Below are positions 1-23,103 of a stretch of DNA of 64,000 bases, piece by piece. The DNA comes from Rhodoluna sp. KAS3 (GTDB lineage: Bacteria; Actinomycetota; Actinomycetes; Actinomycetales; Microbacteriaceae): positions 434,001 to 498,000 of the forward strand of contig NZ_AP026910.1 in the NCBI RefSeq assembly GCF_026000575.1, written 5' to 3'. The notes under the pieces are model-generated. The model had not been told where the DNA came from. It did not search any database and worked only from the letters and a program-made list of their open reading frames with translations. How positions within the stretch are numbered: position 1 is the stretch's first letter; every line of letters begins with the position of its first letter. Both the position numbers and the translations under genes were made by a program.

Positions 1-135
1 CAAGACCTGTGGAGCATGGCTGAGAAGCTTGCTCCAAACCGTGACCCTCGCGACTGGATTGTGGACGTTGTGAACCTAAACGGCCTCGGAACCACCGAGG
101 TACAGCCAGGGCAAAAGATCGCGCTTCCTAACTAG
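1..135 (+). CDS. LysM-domain protein, C-terminal end (partial)
   Basis: The window opens inside a reading frame that ends with TAG at 133-135 and gives 44 residues. The end reads like the second half of a LysM peptidoglycan-binding repeat: a segment SMAEKLAP, then WIVDVVNLNGL, then VQPGQKIALPN at the very C terminus. LysM repeats bind N-acetylglucosamine in peptidoglycan and sit outside the membrane. Small LysM proteins are commonly found just upstream of hisC in Microbacteriaceae, next to lexA; that is family knowledge, and the upstream part is not visible here. The start, any signal peptide and the full length cannot be judged. Confidence 0.7.
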   Translation, partial: QDLWSMAEKLAPNRDPRDWIVDVVNLNGLGTTEVQPGQKIALPN

Positions 136-15846: not shown

Positions 15847-17142
15847 ATGGCAACAGCTGAATTTCTTCGCGGTCAGAGTAACGACCCTTCCTTTCCGCAC
15901 ATCCTCGACGAGCTCAAGTGGCGTGGTCTGGTGGCTCTATCCACCGATGAAGACGAGCTGCGCGCAGCACTTTCAGAAAAGCTGACCTACTACTGCGGCT
16001 TTGATCCAACCGCGGCAAGTTTGCACTTGGGTAACCTGGTGCAGCTTTTGACCATGCGTCGCCTCCAATTGGCAGGCAACTGCCCCTTGGCTCTAATCGG
16101 TGGGTCGACCGGATTGGTTGGCGACCCGCGGCCAACTGCGGAGAGAACTCTGAACACCAAAGAAACCGTTGCCGAGTGGGTCGAGAAGCTCGGAAGCCAG
16201 GCATCTCGCTTCCTTGCATTCGAGGGGCCAAATGCTGCTCGGTTGGTAAACAACCTGGACTGGACCGCGCCGCTAAGCGCAATTGATTTTCTGCGAGATG
16301 TTGGCAAGTACTTCCGTGTTGGCAAGATGCTGTCTAAAGACGCCGTTTCGGCCCGTCTAAATTCTGAGCACGGAATCAGCTATACCGAATTCAGCTACCA
16401 GATCCTCCAGGGTTTTGACTTCCTAGAGTTGTTCCGCCGTTACGACTGTGTGCTTCAGACCGGTGGCTCGGATCAGTGGGGAAACCTAACTTCTGGAACC
16501 GACCTGATTCACAAGGTTGAAGGCAAGAGCGCTCACATTTTGGCGACGCCGTTGATTACCAATAGCGATGGCAAAAAATTCGGTAAATCTGAGGGTAATG
16601 CGGTTTGGCTAGATGCTGAACTAACCAGCCCTTATGCGTTCTACCAGTTCTGGCTAAATGTTGAGGACGCGGATGTCATCGACCGCCTGAAGGTTTTCAC
16701 ATTCCTGACTCGCAACGAAATTGAAGAACTCGAGCGCCAGACCATTGAAGCGCCATACCTACGCGCGGCCCAGAAGCGTTTGGCCCTTGAGGTAACCACT
16801 TTGGTTCACTCTGCTTCAGCAGCACAGGCAGCAATCGATGCTTCAGCTGCGTTGTTCGGTAATGGTGACTTGGCAACCCTTGATGCCACAACTCTTGCCG
16901 CCGCTTTGGGGGAGTTGCCCAATGCGACTGCTGTTTCGGGAACCCTGATTACAGATCTCCTGGTTGAAACCGGTTTGGTTGCTTCAATCTCAGCTGGCCG
17001 TAGGGCTATAGCTGAGGGTGGCGTCTACCTAAACAATGAGAAAGTCACTGATGAACAGGCAAATCTGGATAACTTCATCCAGGATCGGTTTGCAGTTCTA
17101 CGACGAGGCAAAAAAACTTTGGCCGGAGTCTTTAAGGCGTAA
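15847..17142 (+). CDS. tyrS: Tyrosyl-tRNA synthetase
   Basis: Charges tRNA-Tyr. The 431-residue protein is the TyrS (bacterial TyrRS) form: class I signature HLGN in AASLHLGNLVQLL, the KMSKS-like loop KFGKS in SDGKKFGKSEGN, and a C-terminal S4 RNA-binding domain from about residue 365 (AGRRAIAEGGVYLNNEKVTD). It starts 2 bases after argH, so it is probably co-transcribed with it. A GC-rich hairpin follows the stop. Confidence 0.97.
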   Translation: MATAEFLRGQSNDPSFPHILDELKWRGLVALSTDEDELRAALSEKLTYYCGFDPTAASLHLGNLVQLLTMRRLQLAGNCPLALIGGSTGLVGDPRPTAERTLNTKETVAEWVEKLGSQASRFLAFEGPNAARLVNNLDWTAPLSAIDFLRDVGKYFRVGKMLSKDAVSARLNSEHGISYTEFSYQILQGFDFLELFRRYDCVLQTGGSDQWGNLTSGTDLIHKVEGKSAHILATPLITNSDGKKFGKSEGNAVWLDAELTSPYAFYQFWLNVEDADVIDRLKVFTFLTRNEIEELERQTIEAPYLRAAQKRLALEVTTLVHSASAAQAAIDASAALFGNGDLATLDATTLAAALGELPNATAVSGTLITDLLVETGLVASISAGRRAIAEGGVYLNNEKVTDEQANLDNFIQDRFAVLRRGKKTLAGVFKA

Positions 17143-17161
17143 ATCCTTATAAATAAAGGGC

Positions 17162-17196
17162 AAGCGGGCACACACCTTCACTGGATGTGCCCGCTT
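17162..17196 (+). terminator. Terminator hairpin after tyrS
   Basis: An 11-bp perfect stem (AAGCGGGCACA at 17162-17172 with TGTGCCCGCTT at 17186-17196) and a 13-nt loop follow the tyrS stop by 20 bases. The tail is ATTGCTT, so there is no strong U-run. Confidence 0.65.
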
Positions 17197-17356
17197 ATTG
17201 CTTAAAAATCACCCTAAAATTCAAAAAATTTCAAAGATTTTTAAGGTTTTTTCGCTGTCTGGCCCAAAAACGGACAAAAACCGGCCAGGCGGCAAATGCC
17301 AGAACCCTTATAAACACTGGGATATAGGCCCGCTGAAACTAAAAGTGCACCTCGAT
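17197..17356. other. A-tract rich region upstream of the rRNA promoters
   Basis: There is no gene in this stretch. It contains several A-tracts; two A5 runs at 17266-17270 and 17276-17280 are exactly 10 bp apart, which favours curved DNA. They sit between the arms of CTGGCC (17259-17264) and GGCCAG (17283-17288). Curved, AT-rich DNA upstream of rRNA promoters often increases their activity; that role is inferred here. Confidence 0.35.
17201..17252 (+). terminator. Second, AU-rich inverted repeat with U-tract
   Basis: CTTAAAAATC (17201-17210) pairs perfectly with GATTTTTAAG (17236-17245), followed by GTTTTTTC. It could be a backup terminator for tyrS, shielding the rRNA promoters. The stem is weak and the 25-nt loop long, so this is uncertain. 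Confidence 0.35.
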
Positions 17357-17385
17357 TTGACATTGCCGTTACCTCCCCGTAATGT
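17357..17385 (+). promoter_or_regulatory. Consensus sigma70-type promoter P1 upstream of rrn
   Basis: TTGACA at 17357-17362, a 17-nt spacer and TAATGT at 17380-17385. This is the best full promoter in the window, with the start expected near 17392. It may drive rrn as P1 or a separate small RNA, because a strong hairpin with a U-tract lies about 70-95 nt downstream. Confidence 0.75.
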
Positions 17386-17391
17386 TTTACC

Positions 17392-17490
17392 TGTTGCCGA
17401 AACGCCGAGGAAGTTCTGATAAGAACCCCGGATCAAGAGCAACAAATCCTAAACCAGGTCAAAAAGCCTCTTGCAGGCTTTTGTTTTTGT
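17392..17490 (+). ncRNA. Candidate structured small RNA or attenuated rrn leader
   Basis: From the predicted P1 start to a clear intrinsic terminator is about 100 nt. Inside, a closing stem GTTGC (17393-17397) with GCAAC (17439-17443) encloses a hairpin GTTCT/AGAAC with loop GATA (17413-17426) and a CCG/CGG helix. There is no convincing open reading frame. It lacks the conserved GGAAG core of SRP RNA and resembles no family I can name. It is either a free small RNA or an early-terminated rRNA leader transcript. Expression is not shown by sequence alone. Confidence 0.4.
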
Positions 17491-17494
17491 GTTT
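17462..17494 (+). terminator. Intrinsic terminator between the two rrn promoters
   Basis: An 8-bp perfect stem (AAAAGCCT at 17462-17469 with AGGCTTTT at 17475-17482), a 5-nt loop, then GTTTTTGTGTTT. It lies downstream of P1 and upstream of P2. Confidence 0.7.
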
Positions 17495-17535
17495 ATGATT
17501 GAAGACTTCCACTGAAAACAGTTGGCGTGTCAGAT

Positions 17536-17563
17536 TTGACAAGTTAGCAAAAGGTGGTAAGTT
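17536..17563 (+). promoter_or_regulatory. rrn promoter P2
   Basis: TTGACA at 17536-17541, a 16-nt spacer and TAAGTT at 17558-17563, with the start near 17570. This gives a 16S leader of about 240 nt containing boxA and hairpins. Confidence 0.65.
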
Positions 17564-17616
17564 AGACAAGTTGCCCTGGAGGCAAGTAGAGATACAAACT
17601 CCCAGGAGCATCCGAT

Positions 17617-17639
17617 CCTTGAGAACTCAACAGCGTGCA
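17617..17639 (+). promoter_or_regulatory. boxA and 5' arm of the 16S processing stem
   Basis: TTGAGAACT matches the actinobacterial boxA antitermination site and recurs before 23S at 19641. Bases 17625-17639 can form a 15-bp helix (one G-U pair) with 19496-19510 downstream of 16S, which would enclose pre-16S for RNase III cleavage. Confidence 0.7.
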
Positions 17640-17650
17640 CAATGTCGATA

Positions 17651-17764
17651 CCAAGAACCTCTTGGTTATCTAGCTTGCTAGATAAGCAGAGAAAATATTG
17701 GATTAGACAGATTGTCAGACAATCTATTTAGTCAGATCAAGCTAAAGGCCCCATTTTCCGGGGC
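17651..17764 (+). other. Hairpin-rich 16S leader
   Basis: Four hairpins stand in a row: CCAAG/CTTGG (17651-17665); an 8-bp stem TTATCTAG/CTAGATAA with a 4-nt loop (17666-17685); a 17-base palindrome AGATTGTC-A-GACAATCT (17709-17725); and GCCCC/GGGGC (17748-17764). They lie between boxA and 16S and are probably folding or processing elements. Confidence 0.5.
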
Positions 17765-17809
17765 TGAAGTAAAAATTTGGTGGTGAGCTTGCTCGTCACC
17801 TAAAAAACT

Positions 17810-19335
<1,526 letters not shown>

Positions 19336-19495
19336 AGCATCTCGAGAAACTTAGGTTTCTCATAGAGATCCTGATCTAGAACAAACGTTTCTAGCAGGGT
19401 AGCTCACGGGTGGAATATCGAATTGTAAGCAGCCGTAATCAGCTGCTCTAGTACGGTCCTTGTGACCTGGAACGAGTCCTGATGAAAACTACTTT

Positions 19496-19511
19496 TGCAC
19501 GCTGTTGGGTC
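19496..19511 (+). other. 3' arm of the 16S processing stem
   Basis: TGCACGCTGTTGGGT pairs with 17625-17639 upstream of 16S (15 bp, one G-U). Expected RNase III substrate. Confidence 0.65.
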
Positions 19512-19640
19512 CTGAAGGACCGGGTAACCGACCTTCAAGACCGATACATTTCTTCGGAAATGTGACGGACTGGACCACACAAGCTAGTGAACCACCGCTT
19601 ATGCGGCAGGCCTAGTCTCTGGAGTGGTACCGACCGTACT

Positions 19641-19667
19641 TTGAGAACTACATAGTGGACGCGAGCA
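19641..19667 (+). other. boxA and 5' arm of the 23S processing stem
   Basis: TTGAGAACT repeats the boxA found before 16S. Bases 19645-19667 pair over 23 bp, with two G-U pairs, with 22828-22850 downstream of 23S. Confidence 0.75.
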
Positions 19668-19719
19668 TCTTAAAAATAAGATTTAACGATCTCTGAATTA
19701 TGTTCAGTGATCTCTTTGA

Positions 19720-22818
<3,099 letters not shown>

Positions 22819-22827
22819 AACATTTTT

Positions 22828-22850
22828 TGCTTGCGTCCACTATGTGGTTC
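22828..22850 (+). other. 3' arm of the 23S processing stem
   Basis: Pairs with 19645-19667 over 23 bp, with two G-U pairs. It lies in the 23S-5S spacer, which otherwise holds only a short hairpin (ACACA CTTTCG TGTGT near 22871-22886). Confidence 0.75.
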
Positions 22851-22907
22851 CCGAAGTATGGGAGCCAAAACACACTTTCGTGTGTCGAAGAAACCTATTT
22901 CAATAGT

Positions 22908-23026
22908 GTTTCGGCGGCCATAGCGGAGGGGAAACGCCTGGTTACATTCCGAACCCAGAAGCTAAGACCTCCAGCGCCGATGGTACTGCAAGGGTGACCT
23001 TGTGGGAGAGTAGGACACCGCCGGAC
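22908..23026 (+). rRNA. rrf: 5S ribosomal RNA
   Basis: About 119 nt from GTTTCGGCGGCCATAGCG to GACACCGCCGGAC. The terminal helix (GTTTCGGCGG with CCGCCGGAC), the conserved CATTCCGAACCC loop region and GGGAGAGTAGG are all visible. It ends about 10 bases before the operon terminator. Confidence 0.96.
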
Positions 23027-23036
23027 TTAATTTAAG

Positions 23037-23066
23037 AAAATGGCCACCTTTCGAGGTGGCCATTTT
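23037..23066 (+). terminator. rrn operon terminator
   Basis: A perfect 12-bp stem (AAAATGGCCACC with GGTGGCCATTTT) and 6-nt loop, ending in a T-run. Strong intrinsic terminator directly after 5S. Confidence 0.93.
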
Positions 23067-23103
23067 CGTTTAACATGCATATATCAATACTGAGGAGAGT
23101 CAT

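Follow-up and report, generated by a model that had tools for sequence, protein, structure and literature searches.

What is known of how actinobacteria control rRNA synthesis comes mainly from mycobacteria and Streptomyces. The published account of mycobacterial rrn operons, in the portion cited here (PMC10218544), describes CL1, a conserved leader that follows promoter PCL1, is accompanied by CL2/boxA and forms part of the PCL1 promoter of rrnA. The same portion gives the order tyrS-rrn for mycobacterial rrnB. Escherichia coli and Mycobacterium tuberculosis share a second kind of rrn-leader RNA signal, boxB-boxA-boxC, and NusA binds the boxC element in M. tuberculosis, as stated in the cited part of PMC6614801. 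RNA can also act on the polymerase by itself: the put RNA of phage HK022 is described, in the section cited, as suppressing pausing and termination through its nascent structure alone (PMC9378689), and Ms1, 6S and CoRP have in common a folded structure and binding to RNA polymerase (PMC11077062).

Here we describe a locus that resembles each of these systems in part. The window, that is, the whole 64,000-nt stretch of Rhodoluna sp. KAS3 DNA that was analysed (contig NZ_AP026910.1), holds a flagged stretch that is probably a conserved folded RNA opening the rRNA transcript in a single bacterial family, the Microbacteriaceae, rather than an independent gene for a small RNA that ends at its own terminator. 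Like CL1, this element is a conserved leader lying just past an rrn -10; it is longer than CL1 as portrayed in the cited portion of PMC10218544, differs from it in structure and stands after the distal promoter. Like boxB-boxA-boxC it would be an RNA signal of the rrn leader, its action on the polymerase being our proposal, but it contains no boxA, and the boxA-like stretch of the locus lies separately, downstream, at 17619. Its likeness to put, a phage element, is one of description, and three exact patterns of the element found no match in viral contigs. Ms1, 6S and CoRP, unlike the element, are presented in PMC11077062 as RNAs that stand on their own, and the word 'leader' is absent from the text cited.

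The rrn locus

The 1.34-Mb genome is assembled as one contig and has one 16S gene, hence a single rrn operon. The features discussed below all lie on the forward strand.

15847..17142, + strand, tyrS (tyrosyl-tRNA synthetase, 431 aa), upstream neighbour of rrn, assigned by translation and tblastn
17162..17196, + strand, inverted repeat 3' of tyrS with perfect 11-bp arms and a 13-nt loop
17357..17385, + strand, promoter PA, TTGACA-17-TAATGT, the upstream rrn promoter
17389..17452, + strand, conserved structured leader element, 64 nt (covariance model match, 63.1 bits; pair counts on 100 leaders)
17462..17482, + strand, 8-bp hairpin AAAAGCCTCTTGCAGGCTTTT, earlier taken as a terminator stem, its loop holding part of the PB -35
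17471..17499, + strand, PB, internal promoter pattern TTGCAG-17-TATGAT, predicted from hexamers and spacing
17536..17563, + strand, promoter PC, TTGACA-16-TAAGTT, the second rrn promoter of the preliminary description
17570..17612, + strand, PC leader hairpin: GUUGC/GCAUC outer stem, bulged A17607, CCUGG/CCAGG inner stem
17619..17633, + strand, boxA/boxC-like stretch TTGAGAACTCAACAG, named by analogy with the mycobacterial stretches of PMC10218544 and PMC6614801, as excerpted
17810..19329, + strand, 16S rRNA gene

The best named TyrS matches are Rhodoluna MAGs, which places the genome with Rhodoluna-like Microbacteriaceae, and tblastn hits to tyrS adjoin the conserved element in many of the loci fetched. 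The repeat behind tyrS likely marks the end of the tyrS transcript. Above gathering threshold, Rfam 15 gave rRNAs and nothing else, both for the window and for five relatives; permissive scans of three leaders gave weak matches far under the gathering scores. The preliminary description had spoken of a small RNA of unknown family without a reading frame. A structured non-coding RNA without an Rfam match is indeed present; its status as a separate small RNA is not supported, as set out below, and a candidate ATG frame of 38 codons (17382-17498) overlaps the element.

Promoter PA had been called the only fully consensus promoter in the window. Its -35 hexamer TTGACA (17357-17362), 17-nt spacer and -10 hexamer TAATGT (17380-17385) are as claimed, but the -10 agrees with TATAAT at just 3 of 6 positions, which is why a sigma-70 scan found no promoter at PA. 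Nor is it the only such site: TTGACA-16..18-TANNNT matches again at 17536-17563, the downstream rrn promoter, with 0.87 matches expected by chance in the window and at least two in 21 of 100 shuffles. The position of PA is kept in relatives and reads GATTTGAC...CGTAATGT within the genus. Across 96 distinct leaders, GTANNNT begins 9-13 nt 5' of the element in 84, and in 80 of those at 10-11 nt; this -10 at a fixed distance indicates that the RNA fold starts at the predicted +1 of PA.

Most leaders outside the genus also carry a DNA motif around GCGACACGCCCGGG at a fixed place just 5' of the PA -35. CGACACGCC occurs with at most one mismatch in 68 of 96 leaders, and the motif lies 57-60 nt 5' of the element in 67 of 96 (L055 and L048, for example); it is absent from the window and from nearly all same-genus leaders. 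The motif is a possible site for an activator of the rrn promoter. In Micrococcaceae, one pattern for a simple hairpin at PA matched 4 of 25 loci, and we make no wider claim for it.

Structure and covariation of the leader element

RNA 17391-17491 is predicted to fold into two closed domains at -28.9 kcal/mol (z = -2.65; matched or bettered by 1 of 200 shuffles), in keeping with the closed multi-stem shape first proposed. The element has an outer stem, 17393-17397/17439-17443, extended by C17398-G17437 past a bulged A17438; an internal loop, 17399-17401/17434-17436; and inner stems within 17405-17417/17422-17431. The preliminary description had named a lack of stem conservation in relatives as one of the findings that would refute it, and a covariance search of related genomes found the stems kept.

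This conservation was quantified on 100 aligned leaders (96 distinct), loci chosen for matching the model and including 24 of 36 named tyrS-locus matches. Standard pairs fill 92.1% of 1618 cells, against 74.6% after shuffling, a figure that leans upward because the alignment was fitted to the covariance model. Two-sided changes occur in 14 of 17 pairs and affect all four helices. The covariation score of 0.436, against 0.142 shuffled, was reached in none of 500 shuffles, the same holds for all five measures, and sliding the structures lowers the paired share to 20-47%. The earlier set of 44 leaders agrees, with 92.2% paired and two-sided changes in 11 of 17 pairs; the count of further pair types in that set was equalled by 57 of 500 shuffles.

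The internal loop is strongly conserved in sequence: its 5' side reads CCAMA in 94 of 96 leaders (CCAAA in 73, CCACA in 21) and its 3' side UCAAG in 88 of 96. The window's own loop deviates, with CGAAAC and AUCAAG. The stem above the loop is variable and covarying.

Distribution and genomic position

When 59 genomes were searched with DNA, 32 gave a match at E<=1, often a weak one. Within the genus, 17 leaders from 16 genomes, the window's own included, share PA and the element of about 60 nt. Covariance model R1 was built from 14 of these, leaving out L008 and L009, which aligned poorly, and L017, which runs off its contig. R1 matched 33 of 249 family genomes. The loci fetched in the own-genome and family searches with R1 contain 16S or the boxA stretch in 28 of 31 cases; the remaining three are a weak second match in the window's genome (L033) and two loci at contig ends (L041, L051). 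A second copy in the genome itself was rejected, the R1 match having an E of 9.9. One genome of the genus, G009, has two different rrn leaders (L004, L031) on two contigs, unlike the four single-contig genomes of the genus that were searched, which have one 16S each; G009 represents either mixed strains or two operons.

R2, a wider covariance model, drew on 44 leaders. At E<=0.1 it found a match in 188 of the 249 family genomes, spread over 64 of 76 genera, and none in the other 61. The loci fetched from the family with R2 hold 16S or the boxA stretch in 30 of 33 cases, and the other three run off their contigs. At the same threshold 35 of 396 genomes of the order matched, 22 of them in the family and 13 in others, mostly weakly. 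Of the loci in these 13, eight were fetched and none has 16S or boxA, and we take them to be chance matches. The strongest (G318, L081; E 5.2e-5) reads like uvrA coding sequence with poor stem pairing, L086 and L088 have no outer stem, and L085 matches the inner part only. Across the class at E<=0.01, all matches (9 of 246 genomes) came from the family.

A set of 80 named tyrS loci gave 36 matches at E<=5. Matching titles include Rhodoluna, Leifsonia, Cryobacterium, Curtobacterium, Herbiconiux, Agromyces and Microbacterium; no match among the 80 is titled Arthrobacter, Kocuria or Streptomyces, and some family-titled loci, several Leucobacter among them, did not match. Two titles are at odds with their contents. 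The MAG contig L109, which has the element along with a tyrS 71% identical to that of the window, is titled Auritidibacter, probably in error. Under the title Vibrio cholerae strain 35D, contig L139 has a tyrS of actinobacterial type (66% to the query), and the assembly is probably contaminated.

The tie to rRNA was examined in 39 genomes, 37 picked among the matching ones plus two unmatched (G153, G081), with one of the two 16S fragments of G175 left out. Each of the 50 R2 matches at E<=1e-4 has a 16S gene on its own strand, 298-504 nt downstream. Matches with E between 1e-4 and 0.01 are upstream of 16S in 3 of 4 cases, and weaker ones in 1 of 21. Conversely, 54 of the 69 16S genes listed carry the element upstream. 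Nine leaders were fetched for the 15 16S genes that do not, and a filters-off search recovered the element in three (L189, L190, L191) and found it not credible in the other six, including all four leaders of G153 and G081. By eye, these six have a different sequence at the same place. L184, L185 and L188 show a GC-rich GTCGCYGCAACG...GCTCA where the element would be, and L192 also has another GC-rich sequence; such stretches are perhaps a second type of leader structure.

A promoter pattern where a terminator was expected

The preliminary description had read the 8-bp hairpin at 17462-17482 and its U-tract as a terminator, and on that basis proposed a separate 100-nt small RNA or attenuation of PA. 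The window does have the hairpin followed by GTTTTTGTG, its stem containing only 3 G-C pairs, while the U-run is poorly kept among relatives. Taking the 94 of the 100 leaders that have distinct elements and at least 120 nt downstream, a terminator-like site is present in 12, the window's included, against a mean of 4.35 (range 1-8) in shuffles; 82 lack one. Since the count exceeds every shuffle, a terminator in some species is possible. Within the locus itself, such sites number 4 in a 3-kb stretch against 3.5 shuffled, and 1 in a 281-nt stretch against 0.3, so the window's site does not stand out by itself.

The same spot matches a promoter pattern far more often. TTGNNN-17/18-TA[GAT][GA]AT is found in 48 of 94 leaders and absent from 46, with a mean of 0.46 and a maximum of 2 in shuffles; the spacing is 17 in 34 leaders, 18 in 14 and 16 in none, and C precedes TTG in 42 of the 48. 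In the window, TTGCAG occupies 17471-17476 and TATGAT 17494-17499, so that the U-tract is the PB spacer. In hexamers and spacing (17 +/-1) PB thus looks like a sigma-70-type promoter, as predicted from sequence. The palindrome centred on the PB -35 averages 5.42 bp in the 48 leaders against 3.55 with shuffled flanks, and the sequence of its arms varies; this excess suggests that the spot may be both promoter DNA and a hairpin in the PA transcript. Because U-runs are so seldom kept and PB overlaps the site, neither a separate small RNA nor attenuation of PA is indicated across the family.

We also considered a kissing interaction between the CUUG loop of this second hairpin and CAAG of the element, and rejected it, as covariation is no higher than in permutations (5.33 vs 5.26; 162 of 500). 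The TTG at the CUUG loop is accounted for by the PB -35.

The proximal promoter and its hairpin

Of 17 same-genus leaders, 14 have a PC-like pattern 78-107 nt past the element; in the other three a nearer site was matched (L005), there was none (L004) or the sequence ends (L017). The boxA-like GATCYTTGAGAACTC was found in 85 of 100 leaders, and RGTTGCY stands ahead of it in 81 of these 85. In 77 distinct leaders the five inner pairs of the PC hairpin are kept in 66-74, where shuffling gives means of 34-70, and GCRUC, one bulged base apart, forms the 3' strand in 70. The pattern required the 5' GUUGC, which leaves only the inner pairs and the 3' strand to carry information.

The PC hairpin shares the outer stem and bulge geometry of the PA element and does not have its internal loop, and R2 matches the window's PC leader weakly (E 0.2). 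The two modules may represent a duplicated promoter-plus-hairpin unit. We take CL1 to resemble the PC hairpin by sequence. Set against a CL1-type hairpin, the PA element shares the outer stem and bulge and has in addition a conserved loop and no boxA.

Short resemblances to known RNAs did not carry weight. CUCAA is common to the element and the window's boxC-like stretch and is too short to be significant; the similarity to the NusA/boxC sequence (CUCAAGAGC vs CUCAACAGC) is a 5- to 9-letter match, at most suggestive, which we did not count as significant, a five-letter match being expected about 1 in 10 times by a hand estimate. Mimicry of rRNA was likewise rejected: a filters-off R2 search of 17000-23100 turned up nothing credible in the rRNA, and, the element aside, its best match was that PC leader.

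Discussion

Comparison of the sequences shows directly how the element is structured, that it is conserved, where in the rrn leader it sits, that its spacing from the -10 is fixed and that no terminator is widely retained. A structure that is bound to rrn, starts at the predicted +1, is mostly without a terminator and encloses a strongly conserved loop is consistent with a signal that nascent pre-rRNA carries and that works in cis. We therefore favour, with moderate confidence, the view that the element is a cis-acting structured leader of the distal-promoter pre-rRNA that most likely acts on the polymerase.

We infer that transcription from PA starts at or next to 17389. The first 60 nt or so of the nascent RNA would then fold into a long irregular hairpin, whose outer stem, with its one-nucleotide bulge, would close the conserved loop, CCAMA facing UCAAG, with the variable covarying stem on top. 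From there the transcript would continue past PB, PC and the boxA region to reach 16S, and the hairpin would keep polymerase fresh from PA processive until the boxA complex forms, either directly or via a recruited elongation factor. This proposed action is carried over by analogy from the boxA/boxC and put precedents. A more specific version, in which a nascent RNA peculiar to rRNA operons offers its CCAMA/UCAAG loop to RNA polymerase or NusA and so confers processivity on distal-promoter transcripts, as a cellular antiterminator of the put kind, or senses a signal that sets PA rRNA output, is a tentative extension that we hold to be doubtful.

A small RNA of about 100 nt, ended at the 17462-17482 hairpin or cut by RNase from the leader and acting in trans, would suit the compactness and good folding of the element, the hairpin and GTTTTTGTG of the window, and the excess of terminator-like sites over shuffles (12 of 94 leaders; mean 4.35, maximum 8). 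Yet 82 of the 94 leaders are without such a site, 48 have the PB pattern at the place of the hairpin, and in the 39 genomes the element, at E<=1e-4, stays in the rrn leader, as a trans-acting RNA need not. We thus consider a trans-acting RNA improbable; the leader may still yield a fragment by processing, and the window's species and its sister may have a weak terminator. The scarcity of terminators also weighs on an attenuator in which the element would switch folds and the 17462-17482 hairpin would stop PA transcripts conditionally, in the manner of a riboswitch. Conserved residues in an internal loop are what ligand- or protein-binding RNAs have, and in the window a terminator-like site stands where such control would need it. 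Against this, the CUUG-CAAG pairing, the one alternative pairing examined, shows no covariation (5.33 vs 5.26 permuted, 162 of 500), and no terminator is widely kept: as a riboswitch the element would be one that stands only before 16S (39 genomes, E<=1e-4) with no widely kept terminator platform. Of the alternatives weighed here, we judge conditional termination the least probable.

A structure for processing or stability, which would seal the 5' end of pre-rRNA or offer it as an RNase III/J site with no effect on transcription, fares between these two and we think it unlikely. It would explain a hairpin at the predicted 5' end of a transcript and a similar hairpin in the leader after PC. A plain stem would suffice for such a role, however, whereas the conserved loop suggests specific recognition, and the element lies about 300-500 nt from 16S, presumably away from the 16S processing stem.

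In searches of open-licence papers, no title or abstract opening among those listed describes the element. We suggest that it is an RNA family that could enter the catalogues. A structured RNA retained across much of a family at the predicted +1 of a distal rrn promoter, with a strongly conserved internal loop, also offers a target for asking why rrn operons have several promoters, and what role the RNA between those promoters may play.
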